A DNA stretch of 38,127 nt, taken from the NCBI GenBank assembly GCA_036000965.1, contig DASYUT010000293.1:1-38127 (forward strand), read 5' to 3'. Below are positions 1,349-25,574 of the stretch, piece by piece; position 1 is the stretch's first letter, and every line of letters begins with the position of its first letter. This DNA is from Actinomycetes bacterium. GTDB lineage: Bacteria; Actinomycetota; CALGFH01. The notes under the pieces are model-generated. The model was not told the DNA's origin and did not search any database. It saw only the letters and a program-made list of their open reading frames with translations. A program made the translations under genes and the position numbers.

Positions 1349-2641
1349 ATGCTGCGTCGAAGAACCGCCGCCACCGCGGCCGCCGCGGTGGGTCTCACCC
1401 TCCTGCTCGCCGGGGCCGTATACGGACAGCCCGGTGAGCCCGTCAGCCGACCGCTCCAGGACGGCGCCTGCGCGCCGGCGTCGAAAGGCGGTCACCCCCC
1501 GGCCGCGCACGGCCAGGCCGGGCTCGCCGCCGTCGAGGGCACGACCGCCGTCCTTGTCGGCACCGACCACACGACCCGGACGCTGCCCGCGGCGGCCGTC
1601 CGCGGCGTCGCCCGCCAGGTCGCCCGCCACCCGTCGCGCGGCGTCGCCATGGTCGACGACCTCGCCGGGGCCGACCGCATCGCCATCACCGGCCCAGCCG
1701 GGTCGCGCGCCCTGCTCGGCGGCGGGGAGGTCTCCGACCTCACCTGGACCCCGCGTGGTGAGCTGGCCTGGGCCGTCAACGCTCGCAGCCTGCGCGTCGC
1801 GGACGTTGACGGGCGCAGCATGCGGGCCATCGCCCCGCCAGCCGGAACGCTCGGAGCCTACGCACCGGCGTTCACCCGGCCAGACCAGCTCGTCGCCGTG
1901 ATCGAGGAGGCCCCGCCGGCCGCCTCGCGCCTGCCTGCCGGCGAGTCCACCGTGCTCAACAACCTCTGGAGCTACGACCTGGCCGCTGGGACGTGGACCA
2001 GGCTGACCAGCTTCTCGGTGGCCGGAAGCGTCTGGTCGGCGATCCGCACGCCGCTGGTCGCACCAGGCGGCGACGTGCTCTTCGTCCGCGTGAGCGGCGA
2101 CGCCCAGCGCACCGAGCTGCCCACCTTCACCCAGTGGCGGCTGCACCGCGGGTCCGCCAGGGCCGAGCGCATCCTGCCTGCCGACACCGTGCTCGCCGGC
2201 TGGCTGGGTTCCGAGCTGATCGTCAACCGGCTCGACGCCCGGCGGGGCACGTGGCAGCTCCTGCGCTCGTCAGGCGCCGGCTTCACGCCGATCGGCTGCG
2301 GCAGCGTGCTGGTCGCCTCCATCGCGTCAGACCCCGACGCCAGCGCCGAGGCGACCGCGCCGGTCGCACCCACCCCGGCCATCGAGGAGCCCGGGCTCGC
2401 CGTCGCCATCGGGGACTTCGAGTCGCCGGCCGCGGCCGCCGCGGCCCGGGCACGCCTCGCCGACGGCGCGGCGTGGACCGTTGCCGGTCACCAGGACGCA
2501 CCGTACGCGGTCCGTCCTGGCGCCTGGGTCCTGCTCCAGCCGATCCGCCCGGGGGAGCAGCCAGGCGCGCAGCTCCAGCGGGTGCGGGCGGCCCACCCGG
2601 AGCTCGAGGAACGCTCGTTCGTCGTGCCCGCCGGCCGATAG
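1349..2641 (+). CDS. Exported TolB/PD40-type beta-propeller protein with SPOR-like C-terminus
   Basis: The 430-residue product starts with a signal peptide (MLRRRTAATAAAAVGLTLLLAGAVYG) and an AGAGAGGA-like ribosome site just upstream. Residues about 50-330 show repeated strand patterns such as DLTWTPRGELAW, LRVADVDG and WSYDLAAGTWTRLT, typical of PD40/WD40-like propellers as in TolB. Residues about 350-430 (VAIGDFESPAAAAAARARL, then WVLLQP) resemble a SPOR domain, which binds denuded peptidoglycan glycan strands. It follows the M15 peptidase by 15 bases, so a shared role in wall remodelling is plausible. The SPOR call rests on pattern only, and the function is unknown. Confidence 0.75.
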   Translation: MLRRRTAATAAAAVGLTLLLAGAVYGQPGEPVSRPLQDGACAPASKGGHPPAAHGQAGLAAVEGTTAVLVGTDHTTRTLPAAAVRGVARQVARHPSRGVAMVDDLAGADRIAITGPAGSRALLGGGEVSDLTWTPRGELAWAVNARSLRVADVDGRSMRAIAPPAGTLGAYAPAFTRPDQLVAVIEEAPPAASRLPAGESTVLNNLWSYDLAAGTWTRLTSFSVAGSVWSAIRTPLVAPGGDVLFVRVSGDAQRTELPTFTQWRLHRGSARAERILPADTVLAGWLGSELIVNRLDARRGTWQLLRSSGAGFTPIGCGSVLVASIASDPDASAEATAPVAPTPAIEEPGLAVAIGDFESPAAAAAARARLADGAAWTVAGHQDAPYAVRPGAWVLLQPIRPGEQPGAQLQRVRAAHPELEERSFVVPAGR

Positions 2642-14197: not shown

Positions 14198-15411
14198 GCG
14201 GGCCGGAGCGACGGCGCGCCCGGGCCGGGGCGGCCGCCACCGGGACGGCGGGAGCGCCGCTCTCCCCCACCACCGCCGCAACGCCGGGCCAGGCCGGCGT
14301 GGACGGCAGCACCCCGATCTTCGAGGGGTCGCCGGTCGAGCCGCGAGCCGTGCCGGGGACCCCCGGCGACCTCGCCCCCGCCCCCGCCGCCGCCGCCGCG
14401 CCGGGAAGCCGGGCCGACCACTCCCCCACCACAGCGGCGCCCGAGCCTGGCACGGGCAGCGAGGCAGCGGTGTCGAGCGGGGTGCCCGGCCTCGTCAGCG
14501 TGGTGGTGCCCGCGCACAACGAGGAGGGCACGGTCGCCATCTTCGTGGAGAAGACGGCGAAGGCGTTCGCGCAGATCGGGCGGCCGTGGGAGCTGCTGTA
14601 CGTCGACGACGGGTCGACCGACTCGACCGCGGCACGGGTGCGGGCGGCGTCGGAGGCGGAGCCGCGCGTGCGGCTGGTCCGCCAGCGCCGCAACCTGGGG
14701 CTGACCGAGGCGCTGAACCGGGGGTTCCGGGAGGCGCAGGGCGAGGTGATCGTGTTCCTGCCCGCCGACCTCGAGTCTGACCCTGCGGTCGACATCCCGC
14801 TGCTGCTCGAGAAGCTGGACGAGGGCTTCGACGTGGTCTCGGGGTGGCGCCAGGGGCGCAGGGACGGCAAGCGGGTCGCGTCACGGGTCGCGAACGTGAC
14901 CTGCAGGGTGCTGTTCGGGCTCGACGTCCACGACCTGAACTGGATCAAGGCGTTCCGGCGGGAGGTGACCGACTCGCTCGCGCTGCGCTCGTCGTGGCAC
15001 CGCTACATCCTGGTCATGGCCCAGAACGAGGGCTTCCGGATCGGCGAGGTCAAGGTCCCCTACCAGGCGAGGCAGGCGGGCCGGTCGAAGTTCGGGTTCT
15101 CGCGCCTGCCGGTGTCGCTCATGGACGTCATCACCCTCAAGTTCCTGCTGACGTTCCAGCGCAAGCCGATCCTGTTCTTCGGGGCGGTCGGCTCGGCCAT
15201 GATCGGGGCCGGGCTGCTGCTGTGGGCGTTCCTGGCCTACATGTTCCTGTCCTCCCACACCCAGTACCGGCCGCTGATGCTGGTCGCCGGGATCTCGCTG
15301 CTGGCGGGGCTGCTGGTCGTGCTGGTCGGGTTCCTGGCCGAGCTGGTCGTGAACGTCTCCGAGCGGGTCGAGCGCCTGGAGCGCCGGCTGACCGACGCCA
15401 CCAGACGGTGA
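14194..15411 (+). CDS. GT2 (DPM1/ArnC-like) membrane glycosyltransferase
   Basis: The 405-residue product starts at GTG 14194, overlapping the aminotransferase stop. Residues 1-100 are a proline/alanine-rich, probably disordered extension. The GT-A catalytic domain then shows SVVVPAHNEEGT, LLYVDDGSTDST, RNLGLTEALNRGFREA and the metal-site region FLPADLESDP, with WIKAFRREV further on. Two C-terminal membrane helices (ILFFGAVGSAMIGAGLLLWA and LMLVAGISLLAGLLVVLVGF) anchor it. Relatives of this form move a sugar from a nucleotide donor to undecaprenyl or dolichyl phosphate. The coupled large membrane protein downstream may use that lipid-linked sugar. Confidence 0.85.
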   Translation: MSGPERRRARAGAAATGTAGAPLSPTTAATPGQAGVDGSTPIFEGSPVEPRAVPGTPGDLAPAPAAAAAPGSRADHSPTTAAPEPGTGSEAAVSSGVPGLVSVVVPAHNEEGTVAIFVEKTAKAFAQIGRPWELLYVDDGSTDSTAARVRAASEAEPRVRLVRQRRNLGLTEALNRGFREAQGEVIVFLPADLESDPAVDIPLLLEKLDEGFDVVSGWRQGRRDGKRVASRVANVTCRVLFGLDVHDLNWIKAFRREVTDSLALRSSWHRYILVMAQNEGFRIGEVKVPYQARQAGRSKFGFSRLPVSLMDVITLKFLLTFQRKPILFFGAVGSAMIGAGLLLWAFLAYMFLSSHTQYRPLMLVAGISLLAGLLVVLVGFLAELVVNVSERVERLERRLTDATRR

Positions 15412-17876
15412 GCACGACCACGGCACCGCAGGCGGGGGCCTCGGCAGCTCCTCCCGCAGGCGAGCCGGCCCCGGCCGGCGAGGACCGCCCAGTCGCCGGC
15501 CCGGCCTTCTGGCTGGGTGTGGCCCTGGCCACGCTGCTGGCCTGGGCGGTGCTGACCTGGCCGCTCACGCTCCACCTCGACCACTTCTGGACGATGAAGG
15601 GCAACGTCGAGTCCAGCGCGGAGCCCAACTTCGTCAGCCGCCCAGGCACGGTGACGAGCGGCGACTTCATGCAGACCGTCTTCATCCAGACGGTGGTGGT
15701 CGACAACGTCCGCGACCTGCGCAACCCCTACCTGGACTTGCGCGAGGGGGCGGCCGGCCTGACCGAGCTGCGCACGACCTCCCTGGACCTGCCCTGGACG
15801 CCGCTGTTCGCGCTGCTGTGGCCGGTCATGGGGATGGTGCCCGCCTACAACCTGATCCTGCTGCTGGCCACCGTGGCGACCGGGCTGGCGGCGTTCGGGT
15901 GGCTGCGCCGGCACGTGCGCTGGCCGCTGCTGGCCGCGGCCGGCGCGCTCGCCTACACCTTCACCCCCAACCGCATGTTCCAGCTCACCGTCCACTTCAA
16001 CGCGGTGCTGTGGTGGTCGCTCCCGGCCGCGCTCTGGGCCTTCGAGGTGATGGTCGAGCGGCACCGGGCCGGGCGGCGCTGGCGCGGCCCAGCCGCGGGG
16101 GTGGTCGCGGTGGCGCTCACGATCGCGCTGAGCGGCGAGTTCCACCTGACCCTGTACATGTCGGCGCTGCTCACCTTCATGGCCGTGTGGGCGCTGGTGG
16201 CGGCCCGGATGGAGCGCCGGCTGGTGCCGCTGGCCCCCGCCGCGGTGACGCTGGCGGCGGTCGCGGCCGGCGCCGCCTACGCCGTGCTCGTGTTCAGGTA
16301 CGCGTTCAAGGGCACTGTGTCCGGGGAGAACGGCAGCTTCCAGCAGGTGCTGCTGTACGCGCCCGACTCGCTCTGGGCGCTGGCCCAGAAGACCTTCGGC
16401 ACCCAGGGCGAGGAGCTCATCTACGTGGGCTGGCCGCTGCTGCTGCTGGCCGTGGCCGGGCTGGCCGCGGTGGTGGCCGGGCGCCTGGGCCGTGCCGGCC
16501 TGGGCGAGGGCGCGGCCGGCCTGGGGCAGGGCACGACCATGCTGGGCCGGGGCACGGCCCGGCTAGGCCAGGGGGTGGCCAGGCTGAGCCAGGGGGTCGC
16601 CAGCCCGGGGCAGGGCACGGCCGAGCTGGGGCAGGGGGTGGCCAGGCTGAGCCAGGGGGTTGCCGGCCGCCAGGTCCGGGCCGCGCTCCCCTACGCCGTG
16701 CTCGTGGTTCCGCTGGTGTTCCTCACCTATGGCCCGCGGTCCGACATCGGGCCGCTGCAGCCCTACAGGCTGCTGTTCGACAACGTGTCGTTCGTCTCGC
16801 TGCAGCGGGTGCCGGAGCGGCTCATGTGCCTGACCGCGCTCGTGCTCGTGCTCCTGGCGATCGTCACCCTCGACCTGGCCAGCCTGCGCTGGCCGGGGTG
16901 GGTGGGCGCCGGGCGGACGGACGGAGCGGGCGGGCGGGCGGACGGGGCCGGGGAGGGACCGGCCGGCAGCGGGACTGGGGAGCCGGCCGGGCGGGACCAG
17001 CTCCCGCAGGAGCTGGCCGGGCGGGAGCTGGCCGCCGGGGAGCCGGCCACAGGGGACCCGGCCGGGCGGGACCAGCCCGCGCGGGAACTGGCCGCGCTGG
17101 AGCTGGCCGGCCGGGGACTGGCCGGGCGGGACCAGCCTGCGCGGGAACTGGCCGCGAGCGAGGATCCCGCCCTGGCAGCCGAGGTGGGCATGCCCGAGTG
17201 GATCGCGGAGGCGCAGGCCGCTGCCGAGGCCGACGCGGAGGCGGGCCGGGCACGGACCGGGGCCGGGCTGCCCCCGCTGCCGGACTGGCTGCGGACCTGG
17301 CTCACGCCGGGGCGGGTCGAGGCCGGTCGGCTCGCCGCCGCCGCGCTGGTGCTCGCGACCCTGCTGCTCCTGGCCGACTACCGGGTCTCGGAGAACCGGC
17401 TCCAGCCGGACCTGGCCGGCAACAAGGTGGTGGCCGCGCTGCGGTCGGCCGGCGACCAGGCCGGGCCGGTGCTCGGCCTGCCGGCCCTGAAGCCGCACGT
17501 GACGTGGAACTCGGCCAGCACCTACCTGGCCGCCCAGAGCCGGCGGCGGGTCCTCAACGCCTACAACCAGACCCCGGCCCGCTGGCTGGACGACCGCATG
17601 AAGCGCCTGGAGCCGCTGAACCGGGGGGTGGCCGACCCGGCCGCGCTCGAGGTCCTGCGCACCACCGGCACCCACCAGGTGCTGGTGATCGACGAGCCGC
17701 GGGTGTTCGCCGCCGGCGAGTGGGAGCAGACCCTCGGCGGCCTGATCCGCTCCGGGCGCTTCCGCCTGGCCGAGCGGGACGGGCCCCTGGCCCTGCTCGA
17801 GCTGGTCGGCGGGCAGAGCCCGACCCGCGGCAGCGAGCAGCCCGGCACGGGCTCCGACCCCACCAAAGAGCTCTGA
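15408..17876 (+). CDS. Large GT-C-like membrane glycosyltransferase with two repeat-expanded loops
   Basis: The 822-residue protein starts at GTG 15408 in a GTGA overlap with the GT2 gene. It has about ten membrane helices; the first (FWLGVALATLLAWAVLTWPL) is followed by an exoplasmic loop with SGDFMQ and DLRNPYLDL, the usual GT-C arrangement with acidic residues after helix 1. Such enzymes use lipid-phosphate sugars outside the membrane, which fits the upstream GT2. Two inserts are unusual: eight heptapeptide repeats (LGQGVAR type, residues 365-420) and a Gly/Ala/Arg/Asp-rich stretch (about 500-590) with repeated AGRDQPARELA units. The C-terminal region (about 640-822) is soluble and lacks a domain I recognise. 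Acceptor and sugar are unknown. Confidence 0.75.
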   Translation: MSTTTAPQAGASAAPPAGEPAPAGEDRPVAGPAFWLGVALATLLAWAVLTWPLTLHLDHFWTMKGNVESSAEPNFVSRPGTVTSGDFMQTVFIQTVVVDNVRDLRNPYLDLREGAAGLTELRTTSLDLPWTPLFALLWPVMGMVPAYNLILLLATVATGLAAFGWLRRHVRWPLLAAAGALAYTFTPNRMFQLTVHFNAVLWWSLPAALWAFEVMVERHRAGRRWRGPAAGVVAVALTIALSGEFHLTLYMSALLTFMAVWALVAARMERRLVPLAPAAVTLAAVAAGAAYAVLVFRYAFKGTVSGENGSFQQVLLYAPDSLWALAQKTFGTQGEELIYVGWPLLLLAVAGLAAVVAGRLGRAGLGEGAAGLGQGTTMLGRGTARLGQGVARLSQGVASPGQGTAELGQGVARLSQGVAGRQVRAALPYAVLVVPLVFLTYGPRSDIGPLQPYRLLFDNVSFVSLQRVPERLMCLTALVLVLLAIVTLDLASLRWPGWVGAGRTDGAGGRADGAGEGPAGSGTGEPAGRDQLPQELAGRELAAGEPATGDPAGRDQPARELAALELAGRGLAGRDQPARELAASEDPALAAEVGMPEWIAEAQAAAEADAEAGRARTGAGLPPLPDWLRTWLTPGRVEAGRLAAAALVLATLLLLADYRVSENRLQPDLAGNKVVAALRSAGDQAGPVLGLPALKPHVTWNSASTYLAAQSRRRVLNAYNQTPARWLDDRMKRLEPLNRGVADPAALEVLRTTGTHQVLVIDEPRVFAAGEWEQTLGGLIRSGRFRLAERDGPLALLELVGGQSPTRGSEQPGTGSDPTKEL
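16500..16667 (+). repeat. 21-bp coding tandem repeat (eight heptapeptides) inside the GT-C gene
   Basis: Eight in-frame 21-base units encode heptapeptides of the type L-G-Q-G-(V/T)-A-x. Two adjacent units (LGQGVAR LSQGVA) recur nearly exactly. The block lies between two membrane helices. Confidence 0.85.
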
Positions 17877-17914
17877 CCCCGCGGCGGCCCAGGGTCTGCC
17901 GTCCGCTGGCCCGG

Positions 17915-18027
17915 CCAACCGACCCGCCCGCGCCGCTCAGCCGACCCACTTCCCCCGCTCAATCGACCCCTCCTCCACTCAACCGACCTCCCCCGCTCAC
18001 CGACCCCTCCCGCTCAACCGACCCGCT
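17915..18027. repeat. Degenerate 13-19 bp tandem repeat between convergent genes
   Basis: Imperfect units of the type cgctcaaccgacccctcc follow one another about six times. They fill the gap between the GT-C gene and the flippase-like gene and include the last codons and the stop of the latter. Confidence 0.7.
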
Positions 18028-18958
18028 GGCGCCTGCGGTCCAGGCGCCGCTCGACGGCCAGGGCGACGCCGGCGCCGAGCAGCTCGAAGGCCATCATCCA
18101 CAGGCGGGAGAGCAGCGCGACCAGCAGGGCGGCGCCCGCCGGCATGACCGGGGCGAGGGCCACGGCCAGGACGCTCTCGCGCACGCCGAGGCCGGCCGGG
18201 GTGACCACGGCGAGGAACCCGACCGCGTAGGCGGCGGCGTAGGCGGCCACGGCGAGGAGGACGTCGCCGGCGGCGAGTGGGTGGACGCTGCGGACCAGGG
18301 CCGCGAAGGCCAGGCCGGTCACCGCCCAGTAGCAGGCGTAGCCGGCGCCGAGCAGGACCGCGGTCCCCGGGGCCGGGACGAGGTCGGCCGGCTCGACCCC
18401 CGGGTAGCGGCGCCGCAGGAGCGCGGCGAGCCGGCGCCGGAAGGCCAGCCCGAGCCCGGCCAGGGCGGCCACCGCGACCGCGCCGTACAGGGCGGGCCGG
18501 CCGAGCCGGGCCCACTCGGCGGCGAGCACGGGCAGCCCCACGAGCAGGGCGACACCCACCGAGAGGAGCTGGGTGAGGGCCATGGTGGCCAGGGTGGTCC
18601 GCCTGGCCACGCCCTCCCGCCTGGCCAGCTCGACCGCGCCGACGAAGCTCCAGACGTTGCCGGGCACGTACCTGGCCAGGTTTGCGAGGAACCATATCCG
18701 CACCCCGCGGGCGACCGGCAGCCCCGCCGCCCGGCGCAGCGCAACGGCCCACAACACCGCGACGAGGGCGTAGGAGGCGGCCAGCAGGACCGACGCGAGT
18801 GCGAAAAACCCGGGCTCTAGACTCCATTTGCGAGAGGTAACGTCCTGCCAGCGGGAGAACAGGGCGATCCCAAAAAATGCGACCACCACCACGGCGGCGG
18901 CAACGGTCCGCCAGCGGGAACCGCTCAAACTGCTCGGGACCGGACGCCTCACCGCCAC
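18014..18958 (-). CDS. Flippase-like membrane protein (LPG synthase TM / UPF0104 family)
   Basis: I start at GTG 18958 (314 residues) because GGAGGT (18965-18970) lies six bases upstream; the frame continues to an ATG at 19021 without a ribosome site. Eight or so membrane helices show the features of the lysylphosphatidylglycerol synthase transmembrane family: LANLARYVPGNVWSFVGAVE after helix 2, a charged AFRRRLAALLRRRYPG loop, and TPAGLGVRESVLAVAL in the later half. No catalytic synthase domain follows. Stand-alone members often sit in glycan loci and are thought to help move or handle lipid-linked intermediates. It faces the glycosyltransferase genes, so a joint role in surface glycan export is likely but inferred. 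Confidence 0.8.
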   Translation of the reverse strand: MAVRRPVPSSLSGSRWRTVAAAVVVVAFFGIALFSRWQDVTSRKWSLEPGFFALASVLLAASYALVAVLWAVALRRAAGLPVARGVRIWFLANLARYVPGNVWSFVGAVELARREGVARRTTLATMALTQLLSVGVALLVGLPVLAAEWARLGRPALYGAVAVAALAGLGLAFRRRLAALLRRRYPGVEPADLVPAPGTAVLLGAGYACYWAVTGLAFAALVRSVHPLAAGDVLLAVAAYAAAYAVGFLAVVTPAGLGVRESVLAVALAPVMPAGAALLVALLSRLWMMAFELLGAGVALAVERRLDRRRQRVG

Positions 18959-19007
18959 ATTAGGACCTCCTTCGATAAACTTCTCGCATCGTAGCCGCTG
19001 CCGGACG

Positions 19008-19037
19008 TTGCTTGGACGCATATCGTTCGTCTACCTT
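19008..19037 (+). promoter_or_regulatory. Possible promoter of the 178-residue protein gene
   Basis: TTGCTT (19008-19013) and TACCTT (19032-19037) are separated by 18 bases in a relatively AT-rich stretch about 48 bases before the start codon. The spacing suits a sigma-70-like promoter; each box only partly fits consensus. Confidence 0.3.
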
Positions 19038-19084
19038 TACCTCCAACGCAGGGGACGCGTTTTCCCAAGGAGGAACCTACGCTG

Positions 19085-19621
19085 ATGGCAGTGAAGGTCG
19101 TCCACGTCTCGGACATTTCCGGCAAGGAGGCAGAGGAACAGTCGCTCGGGCGGCTCGTGGTCCACGAGCACCCCGAGTACGCTGACCTGCCTGTCACGCT
19201 CGAGGTTCTTCCCGAAGAGGTGGAATCTCTCAAGTCCTCTTCCCGGTTCGTGACGATCGAGGTGTTCCAGCCGGGAGCACGCAAGGGCGAGCGCCTCACC
19301 GTCGCCCTCGACGACTTCAACACCCTGGCCACCCCCGGTGTGATGGACTCCGCAATCCAGGACGCGCTGATCGCCAAGCACCGCACCCGCCCGTCGCGGC
19401 CCTCGGCGAGCACCACGGGCGACGGCGCCTCCCGGAGCCGGAGCAAGGTCAACTACGCCACCCTCGAGCACGCCGGGGAGCCCCACCGCGGCCGCATCAC
19501 CGAGGCCGAGAAGGAGCTGGTTCGCGACAACCTCGAGAAGATCAACAAGCGCCTGCGCGAGAGCGACAAGCGCGAGATCGACCCCGAGAACGCGGAGATG
19601 CGCGATCGCTACGGCCTCTAA
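19085..19621 (+). CDS. Conserved soluble protein of unknown function
   Basis: The 178-residue protein has an AAGGAGG ribosome site (around 19067-19073) and no signal or membrane segment. Residues 1-105 form an alpha/beta-looking part (VKVVHVSDISGKEAEEQSLG, LTVALDDFNTLATPGVMD). A Ser/Arg/Thr-rich linker follows (about 106-125). The C-terminal part is highly charged: HRGRITEAEKELVRDNLEKI then REIDPENAEMRDRYGL. I have an impression, not verified, of similar charged tails ending in RYGL in actinobacterial proteins of unknown role, but cannot name the family. The size, charge and linker suggest a cytoplasmic, perhaps nucleic-acid- or ribosome-associated protein; that is inference. Confidence 0.7.
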   Translation: MAVKVVHVSDISGKEAEEQSLGRLVVHEHPEYADLPVTLEVLPEEVESLKSSSRFVTIEVFQPGARKGERLTVALDDFNTLATPGVMDSAIQDALIAKHRTRPSRPSASTTGDGASRSRSKVNYATLEHAGEPHRGRITEAEKELVRDNLEKINKRLRESDKREIDPENAEMRDRYGL

Positions 19622-19646
19622 CCGGCAATAGCCCGGACAGGGTTCC

Positions 19647-19740
19647 GCAAACCTCCTGCAACCGCGCTGGGATGCGCTGCGAAAGGCAAGGCGTACCCAG
19701 CCGAGCCGCCACCAGCGCGGCATGTTGCAGGAGGTTTTGC
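19647..19740 (+). promoter_or_regulatory. Long hairpin masking a ribosome binding site (or large terminator)
   Basis: The left arm (19647-19670, gcaaacctcctgcaac then cgcgctgg) pairs with the right arm (19712-19740, ccagcgcgg, catg, ttgcaggaggttttgc) apart from a four-base bulge and one extra T; the loop is 41 bases. The right arm contains AGGAGG at 19728-19733, seven bases before an ATG at 19741, and the left arm contains its exact complement. It begins 26 bases after the stop of the preceding gene. It could switch translation of the small ORF, or act as a terminator, since four T residues lie in the right arm. Confidence 0.5.
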
Positions 19741-19788
19741 ATGAGCGGCTGCCCCGGCTTCGGCATCTTCGTGTCCAAGGACGGGTAG
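19741..19788 (+). CDS. 15-residue micro-ORF behind a strong ribosome site
   Basis: ATG 19741 to TAG 19788 encodes MSGCPGFGIFVSKDG. The AGGAGG site seven bases upstream is among the best in the window, which makes chance less likely. It may be a leader peptide or a small functional peptide, or the surviving 5' end of a decayed gene, since a truncated DUF427 frame follows. No homology can be claimed for so short a sequence. Confidence 0.35.
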   Translation: MSGCPGFGIFVSKDG

Positions 19789-19831
19789 TCTCGGCCCAGG
19801 CCGCGCGACGCCCCCGGGCCCGCCCGGGGAC

Positions 19832-20134
19832 GTGCGCCTGGATCTGCTCGTCCCCTCCCGGCGGCCGTCGACCTACTGCGAGTTCAAGGGCGAGGCGATC
19901 TTCTACGACACCGGCGACCGGGTCGGGATCGCCTGGTCCTACCCGTCCCCGAGTCCCGGCTACGAGGCGCTCACCGACCACGTGGCGTTCTACCCGGGCA
20001 AGGTGGACCGGGCCACCGTCGACGGCGAGGTGGTCGAGGCCCAGGACGGGGACTTCTACGGCGGCTGGATCACCGCCGACGTGGTCGGCCCGTTCAAAGG
20101 CGCCCCGGGCGCCTCGGGCGCCCCGGGCTTGTAG
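19832..20134 (+). pseudogene. N-terminally truncated DUF427 protein
   Basis: The frame from GTG 19832 gives 100 residues opening directly with VRLDLLVPSRRPSTYCEFKG, then IAWSYPSPSPGYEALTDHVA and FYPGKVD. These match the core and end of DUF427, in particular the C-x-(F/Y)-K-G-E-A and A-W-x-Y-P blocks. The family normally begins 30-60 residues earlier, with a strand and a PPEDV turn; upstream in this frame there is only proline-rich filler and no ribosome site. The short reading frame might still be made, but it lacks part of the fold. Confidence 0.6.
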
Positions 20135-20136
20135 CC

Positions 20137-20192
20137 GCCGCGCCGGTCCTGGTCGGCACCTCGGGCTGGCAGTACCGCGACTGGCGGGGCTG
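20137..20192 (+). pseudogene. N-terminal scrap of a DUF72 protein
   Basis: The frame reads PVLVGTSGWQYRDWRG, the unmistakable start of DUF72 proteins (VGTSGW-Y-xW-G-FYP). Homology stops after about 17 residues, and the sequence then runs antisense into the CGNR gene. No start codon is in frame. Confidence 0.6.
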
Positions 20193-20222
20193 GACCCGAC
20201 CCGGGTCGGCTGACGCCCCGGG

Positions 20223-20501
20223 CTACGGCCCGGAGCGGGCGGCGGCAGCGGCACGCTCCCGCTGGCGGAAGGCCCGCACCTTGGCGCGGTTGCCGCAGAC
20301 GCTCATGGCGCACCAGACGCCCGAGCGGTTCCTGGAGCGGTCGTAGAAGACCCAGCGGCAGCGAGGCTCCGAGCAGGCCTTGAGGCGCCGCCAGGTGCCG
20401 TCCTTGCCGGCGGCGACCACCACCGACAAGAGCCGGGCGACGGCCGCGTCCACGCCCGGCTCGGCCGGGCGCAGCTCCGGCCGGCCGGCCGGCCCCCTCA
20501 C
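20223..20501 (-). pseudogene. CGNR zinc-finger protein lacking its N-terminal domain
   Basis: From GTG 20501 the frame gives 92 residues with a complete CGNR zinc-finger: RRLKACSEPRCRWVFYDRSR, WCAMSVCGNRAKVRAFRQR. Its C-x4-C and C-x4-C pairs should bind zinc and probably nucleic acid. Family members normally have about 180-200 residues with an N-terminal stress-response (ABATE) domain; here a TGA lies three codons upstream and no ABATE-like sequence follows beyond it. There is no clear ribosome site. It is probably a remnant, although a stand-alone zinc finger of this size could be functional. Confidence 0.6.
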
Positions 20502-20823
20502 CGGTTCTCATCGAAGGTCAATCAGGCTCTCACTTGTATCTGGGCGGCCGGTTGCATGCTCTGCCCAGTCGTCTACGCGGCCCTCGACCCGCGGGTCCGC
20601 TACAGCTGACGGCCGGCTCTTCAGCCTGGAAGCACCCGCACGCGGCCGGGGACGGCCGACTCTTCAGCCCGGCGCTTCAGTGCAAGGCGCGGCCGGCGCT
20701 CCGGCGCCACCGGCAATCATCAAACGCCGTAGTTCGGTCCATGCAGCCGGCCGTCGCGGGCTCATCCGTCCGGGGGGATGCTCACCTCTGCAGGAAGGGG
20801 CGAACACGCGGGGGGGAAGCCGG
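20502..20823. other. Gene-free leader of the beta-helix protein gene
   Basis: No convincing ORF lies here. It holds an 18-base direct repeat, acggccg(g/a)ctcttcagcc, at 20609-20626 and 20652-20669 (43 bases apart), and the purine-rich ribosome site ggggggaag ahead of ATG 20824. I could not match the stretch to a known riboswitch class. Confidence 0.45.
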
Positions 20824-23607
20824 ATGGCGTCGTGCTGGAGCTGGTCGTGGCGGTCGAGGACCGTGCTGGTCGTCCTCGTGGTCCTGGTCGGAGTGGTGCT
20901 CGCGACGGCGGGGCCCGCCAGGGCCGCCGCGGCCTACTGGGTGGCCCAGGGGCCGGGGTGCAGCGACGCCGGACCGGGCACGCAGACGCAGCCCTTCTGC
21001 ACGATCGCGAAGGCGGCGAAGGTCGCGGGTCCCGACGCGACCGTAACCGTGTCCGCCGGCACCTACCGCGAGAAGGCGACCGTCGTGCTCGGCGGAGCGC
21101 CCGGGCAGCCCGTGACGTTCCAGGCGCAGGGCGAGGTGGTCGTGCTCGGCACCATCGACGCGTCCGCCCGGCCGTGGACGCCGGCGTCGGGGAGCGCGTA
21201 CAGCACCCCGTGGAGCGAGGCGGTCGCGCCGAAGCAGGTGTTCGTCGACGGCGTGCTGCTCGCCCCGGCCACCGCCCCCGACGCGATGGGGCCGGGCACC
21301 TGGTACCACGACGCGGCCGGCCTGGTCCTGTACGTGCACACGGCCGACGGGTCGAGCCCGGCGGGCCACCAGGTCGAGGTCGGCCGACAGACCCAGGGGT
21401 TCCAGGCCACCGGCAAGTCCGACGTGGTGATCGACGGGTTCACCTTCGACGGGCAGAACGGCAGCGCCGTTGACCTGCGCGACGGCGCGCGCCTGACGGT
21501 CCGCGGCGTGACCGTCCGCAACAGCGGTTCGTACGGGATCCTCCTGTCCAACACCACCGCCTCGTCGGTGACCGGGTCGGAGGTGCTCGACGCGGCGAGC
21601 CACGGCGTCCTCGTGCACGGTGGGTCCCAGGCGACCGTCGCCGGCAACCGCACCCACGACAACCGCTTCCACGGCATCGCCCTGCAGGGGCTCGCCGACT
21701 CGGTGATCGAGGCGAACCAGAGCTGGGCCAACGCCAGGCCGAGCGTGCGCTCCGCCGCGGGCATCTCGGTCGACCAGGACGCGGCCACGGGCCACCGCTC
21801 CGCCAACCTGGTGCTGCGCCGCAACGTCCTCCACGACAACCAGGACTCCGGCATCAGCACCCTGGGCGACACCCAGGGCTGCCGGTACGAGGACAACCTC
21901 TCCTACGCCAACGGCGACCACGGCTTCGACGTGCTGAACAGCCCGAACAACACCTTCTACGCCAACACCTCGGTGGGCAACCACAAGGACGGCCTCAGCG
22001 TCGAGGGCAGCTCGACCGGCACGCGCATCCTCGGCAACGTCGCGGTCGACAACGGCACCACCACCAGCGAGTACGACCTCTACGTGGACGCCTCGTCGGG
22101 CCCGTCGGTCGTGTCCGACTCGAACCTGTTCTTCAACACCGACCCGGCGGTGCCGCCGGTGAAATGGAACGGCGTCGTGTACCCGACGGTCGCCGCCTAC
22201 GCGTCGGCGAGCGGGCAGGACACGCACGCACGCTCGGCCGACCCGCTCTTCGCCGACCGCGCCGCAGGCGACTTCCACCTGCTCGCCGGCTCGCCCGCGG
22301 TCGACTCGGGCACCAGCGTGCCGGGCGACTACCCCGCCACGGACCTGGAGGGAAGCTCGCGGGTCAACGACGACTCGGCGCCCAACACCGGCCAGGGCCC
22401 GACCGCCTGGTACGACATGGGCGCCTTCGAGCGCCAGGGGCACGAGGTGGTCGTCCCGACCGCCCCGACCGGGGTGACCGCGACCGCGGGGGACGAGTCC
22501 GCCACGGTGAGCTGGACAGCGCCGCCCGCGCCGCCGGGCGCCCCGATCCTCTCCTACACGGTGCGAGCCAGCGCCGGCGGCCCGACCGTCACCGCCCCGG
22601 GTCCGGCGACCAGCGCCACCGTCGGGGGGCTCACCAACGGCAGCAGCTACACCTTCACGGTCAGCGCCACCAACGAGGTCGGCGAGGGGTCCGAGTCGGA
22701 CCCGACCGGGCCGGTCACCCCGACCGACACCAGCGCACCTGGGCCGGTGAGCGGCTTCTCGGCGACCGCGTCCGAGGGCCAGGTCGCGCTCTCCTGGGCC
22801 AACCCCGGCGACACGGACCTCGCCGGCGTGGTCGTGCAGATGGCCCAGGGCGCGACACCGCCCGCCTCCCCGGCCGAGGGCACCCGCGTCTACCAGGACA
22901 CCGGCACGGCGGCGACCGTGACCGGCCTGTCGGCCGGCACCACCTACAGCTTCGCGGCGTTCGCCTACGACGAGGTGCCCAACTACAGCGCGGCGGCCAC
23001 CGCGACCGCCACCACCCCGGTGCCCACCAGCCTGCAGGCGACCGCCTCACCGTCGGTCGTCAGCTACGGCCAGGCGGCCAGCGTCTCCGGCACCCTCACC
23101 GAGGGCGCGGGGGCGGCCCCGGTGGCCGGCGCGACCGTCACCCTGCGCGCCCGGCCGGCCGGCGGCTCGGCCTGGAGTCCCGTCGGCACCGGCACCACCT
23201 CGGCGAGCGGGGCGGTCACCATCGGCCACAGCCCTACTGAGAACGTGGAGTACCAGCTCGCCTATGCGGGCGGGCCAGGCCTGCTCGCCAGCACGAGCGC
23301 GACCGTGCCCGTCGGCGTGCGGCCGCTCCTCACCGCCTCGCTCAGCCCGAAGCAGATCAAACCGGGCAAGACCGCGACCATCGCCGGGACGGTCACCCCC
23401 GCCCACGCCGGGCAGCAGGTGCAGCTCCAGCAGCTCGTCGGGGGCGCCTGGCAGGTCGCGCAGCAGGCCGTCCTGTCCGGCACCGGCACCTACAGCTTCC
23501 GGGTGCAGGGCACGGCCACCGGGGTGTTCACCTACCGGGTCGCCAAGCCGGCCGACGCCGACCACGTCGCGACTGAGAGCGCGCCGCTGCAGCTGACGGT
23601 GCGCTAG
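20824..23607 (+). CDS. Large secreted right-handed beta-helix protein with FN3 and Ig-like domains
   Basis: The 927-residue protein starts at ATG 20824 after ggggggaag and has a long signal peptide ending near ARAAA (residue 36). Residues 37-85 show the DUF1565-like entry to a beta-helix (PFCTIAKAAKVAGPDATVTV, SAGTYREKA). Residues about 190-420 are parallel beta-helix repeats with NNTFYANTSVGNHKDGLSV-type rungs, as in pectate-lyase-like polysaccharide enzymes and lectin-like proteins. FN3 domains follow at about 545-633 and 634-740, then two Ig-like modules (about 741-840 and 841-927). It probably binds or cleaves polysaccharide outside the cell. I cannot identify catalytic residues with confidence. 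Confidence 0.85.
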   Translation: MASCWSWSWRSRTVLVVLVVLVGVVLATAGPARAAAAYWVAQGPGCSDAGPGTQTQPFCTIAKAAKVAGPDATVTVSAGTYREKATVVLGGAPGQPVTFQAQGEVVVLGTIDASARPWTPASGSAYSTPWSEAVAPKQVFVDGVLLAPATAPDAMGPGTWYHDAAGLVLYVHTADGSSPAGHQVEVGRQTQGFQATGKSDVVIDGFTFDGQNGSAVDLRDGARLTVRGVTVRNSGSYGILLSNTTASSVTGSEVLDAASHGVLVHGGSQATVAGNRTHDNRFHGIALQGLADSVIEANQSWANARPSVRSAAGISVDQDAATGHRSANLVLRRNVLHDNQDSGISTLGDTQGCRYEDNLSYANGDHGFDVLNSPNNTFYANTSVGNHKDGLSVEGSSTGTRILGNVAVDNGTTTSEYDLYVDASSGPSVVSDSNLFFNTDPAVPPVKWNGVVYPTVAAYASASGQDTHARSADPLFADRAAGDFHLLAGSPAVDSGTSVPGDYPATDLEGSSRVNDDSAPNTGQGPTAWYDMGAFERQGHEVVVPTAPTGVTATAGDESATVSWTAPPAPPGAPILSYTVRASAGGPTVTAPGPATSATVGGLTNGSSYTFTVSATNEVGEGSESDPTGPVTPTDTSAPGPVSGFSATASEGQVALSWANPGDTDLAGVVVQMAQGATPPASPAEGTRVYQDTGTAATVTGLSAGTTYSFAAFAYDEVPNYSAAATATATTPVPTSLQATASPSVVSYGQAASVSGTLTEGAGAAPVAGATVTLRARPAGGSAWSPVGTGTTSASGAVTIGHSPTENVEYQLAYAGGPGLLASTSATVPVGVRPLLTASLSPKQIKPGKTATIAGTVTPAHAGQQVQLQQLVGGAWQVAQQAVLSGTGTYSFRVQGTATGVFTYRVAKPADADHVATESAPLQLTVR

Positions 23608-23618
23608 GCAGCAGCTCA

Positions 23619-23682
23619 GAAGTCCTGCTCGTAACGCAAGGCGGTGCCCAGGAAGGACTCGGAGGGTTACGGGCAGGACTTC
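23619..23682. terminator. 17-bp inverted repeat after the beta-helix gene
   Basis: gaagtcctgctcgtaac (23619-23635) and gttacgggcaggacttc (23666-23682) pair over 17 bases with a single G-T wobble, around a 30-base loop. It begins 12 bases after the stop codon. It could be a terminator; the long near-perfect arms also resemble a small inverted-repeat element. Confidence 0.5.
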
Positions 23683-23757
23683 CGGGGACCCGCTTGGGCA
23701 GGACTCTGTGCGTCGTCCCGCCGGCCGATGACTGGCGGCAGGGACTGGTGCAGCATG

Positions 23758-23840
23758 GTGTGGACACCCATGGCGTGGACCCACGGCGTGGGCGGCTACG
23801 GCGTGGACCCACGGCGTGGACACCCACGGTGTGGGCACCA
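23758..23840. repeat. Degenerate 13-15 bp tandem repeat before the ABC genes
   Basis: About six units of the type ggcgtggacccac follow one another, ending about 50 bases before the ABC ATPase start. They contain no gene and no spacers. Confidence 0.75.
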
Positions 23841-23891
23841 GGCGGACCGGGACAGGGCGCCCGAGGAAGGCTGGAGGAAGGAAGGACGACG

Positions 23892-24821
23892 ATGTCGGTC
23901 ATCGCCGTGCACGGGCTCGGCAAGCGCTTCGGGGAGGTCGTCGCCGTCGACGACCTGTCCTTCGAGGTCGACGAGGGCAAGGTGACGGGCTTCCTCGGCC
24001 CCAACGGGGCCGGGAAGACGACCACGCTGCGGATGCTCCTCGGGCTCGTCACCCCGACCACCGGCACCGCCACCATCGGCGGCCGGACCTACCGGGAGCT
24101 GGACGAGCCGATCCGGGAGGTCGGCGCGGTGCTCGAGGCGACCGGCTTCTACCCCGGCCGCAGCGCCCGCGACCACCTGCGCGTCCTGGCCGTCGAGGGC
24201 GGCCTGCCCGACGCGGAGCGCCTGGCCGACGAGGTCCTCGGCCTGGTCGGCCTGACCGACAGCGCACGCCGGCGGGTCGAGGGGTTCTCCCTCGGCATGC
24301 GCCAGCGGCTCAGCCTCGCCGCAGCGCTGCTGGGCGACCCGAGGGTGCTGATCCTGGACGAGCCCGCCAACGGCCTGGACCCCGAGGGGATCCACTGGCT
24401 GCGCGGGTTCCTGCGCCACATGGCCGACCAGGGCCGCACCGTGCTGGTGTCGAGCCACGCGCTGGCCGAGGTGGCCCAGACGGCCGACGAGGTCGTGATC
24501 ATCGCCCGGGGCCGGATGGTCGCCCACTCCACCCTGGAGGCGCTGACCGCCCGGGCGACCCCGTCGGTGCTGGTGCGTTCGCCGGACGCCGGCGCCCTGC
24601 ACGGCCTGCTCACCAGGAACGGCATCAAGGCGGAGCTGGACGGCGACGACCGGGTGGTCGCCACCGACACCACCACCGAGGCGGTCGGCCGCCTGGCCGG
24701 CTCCGCCTGCCTGGTGCTCTACGAGCTCCGCATGGACCGCTCCAACCTCGAGGAGGTCTTCCTCGAGCTGACCACCCACGAGAACGAGGAGACCCAGGAG
24801 GAACGGCCATGGGGCGCCTGA
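23892..24821 (+). CDS. ABC transporter ATP-binding protein (ABC-2 type exporter)
   Basis: The 309-residue ATPase starts at ATG 23892 behind GGAGGAAGGAAGG. It shows Walker A GPNGAGKTT (residues 36-44), the signature SLGMRQR (133-139), Walker B RVLILDEP (151-158) and the H-loop His189, followed by a C-terminal regulatory part of about 100 residues typical of DrrA/CcmA-like exporters. The membrane partner begins 13 bases before this gene ends, so the pair is translationally coupled and should form a dimeric drug, lipid or peptide exporter. The substrate cannot be predicted. Confidence 0.9.
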   Translation: MSVIAVHGLGKRFGEVVAVDDLSFEVDEGKVTGFLGPNGAGKTTTLRMLLGLVTPTTGTATIGGRTYRELDEPIREVGAVLEATGFYPGRSARDHLRVLAVEGGLPDAERLADEVLGLVGLTDSARRRVEGFSLGMRQRLSLAAALLGDPRVLILDEPANGLDPEGIHWLRGFLRHMADQGRTVLVSSHALAEVAQTADEVVIIARGRMVAHSTLEALTARATPSVLVRSPDAGALHGLLTRNGIKAELDGDDRVVATDTTTEAVGRLAGSACLVLYELRMDRSNLEEVFLELTTHENEETQEERPWGA

Positions 24822-25570
24822 TCGCGGGGGAGCTGCTGAAGCTCCGCACGACCCGGATGCCGCTGGCGATGCTGGCCGGGATGCTCGGGCTCGCGCTGCT
24901 GGCGGTTGTCGCCGGCATCCTCACCGCCGACCGGGTCGCCGAGCAGGGCCAGGGGTTCCCGCTCGATACCGACGAGGGGGTGCGCAACATCGTCCGCTCG
25001 GCCGGATCCGGCATGTTCTTCGTGCTCGTGCTCGGCATCCTGGGGTTCGCCGGGGAGGTCAGGCACAAGACGATCACCAGCACGTTCCTGGTCTGCCCGA
25101 ACCGGGGGCGGGTGGTCGCGGCCAAGCTGGTCGTGTACGCGCTGGTCGGCCTGGTGTTCGCCGCCGTGTCGTCGGCGCTCACCCTGGCCGTCGCCGTGCC
25201 CTGGCTGTCGATCGAGGGGGTCGAGCTCGGCAGCCGCGCCGGCGACGTCGCCCTCACCGTGCTCGGGGTGATGCTCGCGAGCGCGCTGTACGGGATGATC
25301 GGCGTCGGCGTGGGCGCGCTGGTCCCCAACCAGATCGCGGCCGTCACCGTCTCGCTGCTGTGGCTGCTGATCGCCGAGGGCCTGCTGGTCGGGCTGCTTC
25401 CGTCGGTCGGCAAGTGGCTGCCCAGCGGGGCGGCCACCGCCCTCACCGGGGCCGCGATCACCAACGGCGAGCTGCTGCCCATGTGGGCCGGCGGGCTGCT
25501 GCTGGCCGCCTACGGCCTGGTGTTCGCCGCCTTGGCCACCCGCTTCACGGTGCGCCGCGACATCACCTGA
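24809..25570 (+). CDS. ABC-2 type permease subunit
   Basis: The 253-residue protein has six predicted membrane helices, with LIAGELLKLRTTRMPLAMLA at the N-terminus (the usual amphipathic entry of ABC-2 permeases), EVRHKTITSTFLVCPNRGR after helix 2 as the likely coupling segment, and a final helix LLLAAYGLVFAALATRF. It overlaps the ATPase gene by 13 bases and is the partner of that ATPase. It ends only four bases from the convergent acyl-CoA dehydrogenase gene, and no terminator fits between them. Confidence 0.9.
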   Translation: MGRLIAGELLKLRTTRMPLAMLAGMLGLALLAVVAGILTADRVAEQGQGFPLDTDEGVRNIVRSAGSGMFFVLVLGILGFAGEVRHKTITSTFLVCPNRGRVVAAKLVVYALVGLVFAAVSSALTLAVAVPWLSIEGVELGSRAGDVALTVLGVMLASALYGMIGVGVGALVPNQIAAVTVSLLWLLIAEGLLVGLLPSVGKWLPSGAATALTGAAITNGELLPMWAGGLLLAAYGLVFAALATRFTVRRDIT

Positions 25571-25574
25571 CCGG

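Follow-up and report, generated by a model that had tools for sequence, protein, structure and literature searches.

The window, meaning the whole stretch of 38,127 nucleotides that was analysed, carries behind a gene here called gene X a hairpin that folds over a ribosome-binding site. This hairpin is intergenic, occludes the ribosome site and belongs to the gene X-DUF4397 neighbourhood, with a single locus in each of three genomes. It probably lies between gene X and a DUF4397 gene whose body was deleted in the lineage of the window, leaving the 15-codon open reading frame (ORF) behind the hairpin as a relic. The original prediction of a translational switch holds with regard to an occluded ribosome site in the neighbourhood of gene X, but not with regard to the 15-codon ORF as the product. 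Overall, the locus is a case of ordinary gene decay beside a modest regulatory hairpin.

Table: Positions of the hairpin, its parts and the flanking genes in the window
Feature	Position	Strand	Remark
Gene X, 178 aa, no Pfam family	19085..19621	+	almost wholly confined to the window's class
Hairpin (outer 14-bp helix and further inner helices)	19647..19740	+	between gene X and the putative relic
Left arm, complement of the ribosome site	19649..19662	+	CCTGCAACCG core invariant in G001 and G002
Right arm	19724..19737	+	GTTGCAGGAGGT invariant in G001 and G002
AGGAGG ribosome-binding site	19729..19734	+	6 nt upstream of ATG 19741
15-codon ORF	19741..19788	+	start codon ATG apparently fused in frame to the C-terminal codons of a deleted DUF4397 gene
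DUF427 (PF04248) remnant without the first 49 residues	19820..20134	+	open frame from GTG 19832
DUF72 gene, first codons, cut off	20140..20236	+	collinearity with G002 stops at 20236

The inverted repeat, the AGGAGG, the correctly spaced ATG and the 15-codon ORF were all found where they had been described, and the arms AAACCTCCTGCAAC and GTTGCAGGAGGTTT, with 61 nucleotides between them, form a perfect 14-nucleotide inverted repeat. The calculated fold pairs the Shine-Dalgarno sequence of the window with the upstream arm. The hairpin strand folds with -67.9 kcal/mol (z -4.2), which none of 200 shuffles equals, and a longer stretch around the hairpin has a z of -3.06, equalled by 2 of 200 shuffles. 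The arm length by itself is unremarkable, because a perfect inverted repeat of at least 14 nucleotides also turns up in 11 of 100 windows simulated with a Markov model. The hairpin stands out by covering a ribosome site with proper spacing; among the 21 GGAGG-plus-start sites of the window (6 on the plus and 15 on the minus strand), only the AGGAGG before ATG 19741 has an upstream complement longer than 7 nucleotides, namely 11. The Rfam search of the window gave no match above the gathering cut-off, and the hairpin was on this ground rejected as a known RNA family.

The sample of the class comprises three genomes, the window genome and two others (G001 and G002), which are near relatives from one genus, so the comparison is scarcely independent. 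In both relatives, gene X is succeeded within about 25 nucleotides by CCTGCAACCG...GTTGCAGGAGGT and a GTG that starts a DUF4397 gene, and the pattern CTGCAAC-gap-GTTGCAGGAGG has a single locus per genome in all three, each time behind gene X. The earlier proposal of a hidden ribosome site, with the hairpin forming part of the neighbourhood of the upstream gene, is thus supported, as two relatives have both arms at the corresponding position. Scanning genome contigs for the pattern confirmed one locus among 16 matching stretches, in an uncultured actinobacterium (CALGFH010000409.1), probably the same record as G001.

The three-sequence alignment (A3) has an outer helix of 12 pairs, where 94.4% of the 36 cells are paired, compared with 28-56% when the arms are slid. 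The arms had been expected to be conserved with compensatory base changes; they are indeed kept in G001 and G002, but none of the 12 pairs is altered on both sides in the three sequences, leaving the outer helix without proof by covariation. The pairs opposite the AGGAGG are partly G-U in the relatives, with one mismatch. Invariant columns make up 21 of 24 in the arms versus 17 of 44 ungapped columns between them, and 9 of 12 in the left arm alone (Fisher p 0.027, a small sample). This conservation supports a function without proving it. Folds compared by eye suggest an inner-stem difference between G001 and G002 in which both strands changed in a matching way. Neither relative has a fold that clearly outperforms its shuffles (z -1.4 and -1.2, equalled by 14 and 30 of 200). 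Arms conserved without covariation would equally suit a DNA-level protein-binding site with no RNA element. However, the arm spacing varies, from 61 nucleotides in the window to 44 in the relatives, and the right arm coincides with the ribosome site, making such a site highly improbable.

The covariance model built from the three sequences returned three strong matches in 246 genomes (80-92 bits), which are the training sequences themselves, and the next best match reached 25.4 bits. Matches with E-values up to 0.1 were found in 32 of the 246 genomes versus about 25 matches expected by chance; a wider hairpin family was rejected, the matches beyond the training sequences being near chance level. 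A mobile or repeated element was likewise rejected, the stretch being single-copy in the window genome and without a DNA match in 40 other genomes.

Gene X has orthologs with 77% identity in G002 and 75% in G001. It had been described as a conserved protein of unknown function, and it is conserved, but narrowly so, being present in all three genomes of the class and in 4 of the 396 phylum genomes searched, these three included. The window genome has a second gene X copy (L003, 1501-2076) with 53-56% identity. By eye, the hairpin is absent behind this paralog and behind a more distant gene X copy of G002 (L006).

The right-arm AGGAGG opens a full secreted DUF4397 gene in both relatives, with 232 residues in G002, and the gene order there is an LPG-synthase-like gene on the opposite strand, gene X, the hairpin, DUF4397, DUF427 and DUF72. 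Pfam assignments in the relatives refer to the G002 proteins only, where DUF4397 (Pfam ID PF14344) is matched with an E-value of 6e-36. The DUF4397 proteins of G001 and G002 end in ...YPGFDVFVSVDG, also given as DYPGFDVFVSVDG, directly before the stop. The window ORF MSGCPGFGIFVSKDG ends in ...CPGFGIFVSKDG, which is identical to the last 12 residues of DUF4397 at 8 of 12 positions, in frame and with the stop (TAG, last base 19788) at the same place. This is the single best match among all six-frame 12-mers of the window, the next best having 6 identities, and on the DNA level 30 of 39 bases match the DUF4397 end from 19746 on. The approximately 0.86 kb between the hairpin and the DUF427 core in G002 correspond to some 80 bases in the window, and elsewhere the window genome has no close DUF4397 copy, its only match being a paralog with 36% identity. 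The tail match, the lack of another close copy and the truncation of both DUF427 and DUF72 strongly suggest that a deletion left the 15-codon ORF as a relic, the C-terminal remnant of a DUF4397 gene, and that it is not a leader peptide.

The ORF had been proposed as the product of the switch, to be conserved in relatives. It does have a good ribosome site, proper spacing and an in-frame start, as would be expected if the hairpin switched the translation of a functional leader or small peptide. However, its residues correspond to the C-terminal end of a larger protein, whose full gene is opened by this site in the relatives, the short form occurs in neither G001 nor G002, and the gene behind it is itself truncated. 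A leader-peptide attenuator would have a short peptide conserved as such and regulatory codons; the ORF is not so conserved and contains no run of such codons. A functional peptide is therefore extremely improbable.

The window locus is a decayed operon, with the 15-codon ORF as its debris. The DUF427 match in the window begins only at residue 50 of 150, and the blocks collinear with G002 are 14442-16562, 16943-19700, 19819-20236 and 25571 onward. The DUF4397 deletion is read from one draft assembly (358 contigs), in which an assembly chimera could conceivably have produced the short ORF, but the collinearity with G002 on both sides argues against a gross misjoin. Positions 20236-25571, starting at the broken DUF72 gene, form a 5.3-kb stretch between collinear blocks that is not collinear with G002. 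Beside the cut-off DUF72, a CGNR zinc-finger fragment (Pfam ID PF11706, E-value 3.6e-20) lies on the minus strand at 20223-20501 in a 92-residue open frame, and looks like another truncated gene. In locus L016, between the DUF4397 stop and the DUF427 start (about 1488-1499, minus strand), G002 reads GATCGGAAGAGC, which equals the start of a common Illumina adapter and may be chance or an assembly trace. No literature on DUF4397 in actinobacteria was found. Deletion of a gene body can yield a convincing layout of a switch plus a tiny ORF, which is a trap for small-ORF and riboswitch searches, and the locus is a small and testable example of a ribosome-site hairpin that has survived the loss of its gene.

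Opening the AGGAGG at 37 C is calculated to cost 18.4 kcal/mol in the window, 11.3 in G002 and 10.1 in G001, while seven further AGGAGG-start sites for which the cost was calculated in the window, not all of them known genes, need 0.3-9.2 kcal/mol. In the relatives, the 3' arm bears the ribosome-binding site of the secreted DUF4397 gene and pairing with the 5' arm would keep it shut, lowering translation, so that DUF4397 would be produced at a lower level than gene X, or only on opening of the helix. Initiation of DUF4397 is there probably held low unless the helix is opened, because opening the AGGAGG costs about 10-11 kcal/mol. In the window lineage, a deletion would have taken nearly all of DUF4397 and fused its start codon to the last dozen or so codons, and adjoining deletions or rearrangements would also have truncated DUF427 and DUF72.

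The hairpin begins about 26 nucleotides past the gene X stop codon in the window, its fold is very stable, and the TTTT noted at its 3' edge lies at 19735-19738, directly after the AGGAGG. These features would fit a hairpin that is mainly a terminator or 3'-end stabiliser of gene X, also in the relatives, with an incidental overlap of the ribosome site. However, neither relative has a T run past the arm (GGAGGTCATG, GGAGGTCGTA), and the arm directly opens DUF4397 in both, which makes this explanation rather unlikely. A terminator scan found none, but it was blind to this hairpin because its loop sizes were limited to 3-8. For the window genome, a terminator-like role for gene X is possible, and a 3'-end role is plausible, since the TTTT adjoins the arm. 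With the DUF4397 gene lost, the tighter window helix would most likely serve mainly to give the gene X transcript a stable 3' end, or would be a locked site. It is doubtful that the hairpin tightened into the fully closed form after the gene loss and was retained as a cis-acting element for gene X, serving as a 3' end or as the target of a regulator, possibly the product of gene X itself.

RNA thermometers bury a ribosome site in a hairpin, as is the case in the window, and open in the physiological temperature range. In contrast, the window helix is still closed in the calculation at 70 C, where opening costs 10.7 kcal/mol (4.6-5.6 in G001 and G002). The proposed thermometer is contradicted by this energy and is unlikely, because the window site is effectively locked. 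Intergenic attenuating hairpins lie just past the stop of one gene and cover the region where the next gene starts; the hairpin has the same placement between operon genes, but this next gene is lost in the window. Hairpins sequestering ribosome sites are also described in actinobacterial mRNA leaders, for example, in the translational T-boxes of ileS (PMC1262725). Unlike these, the window hairpin has no T-box or other Rfam match, and it is intergenic, at one locus in three genomes, whereas T-boxes lie in mRNA leaders. Like the ileS elements as described there, its helix pairs the Shine-Dalgarno box and should reduce translation initiation.
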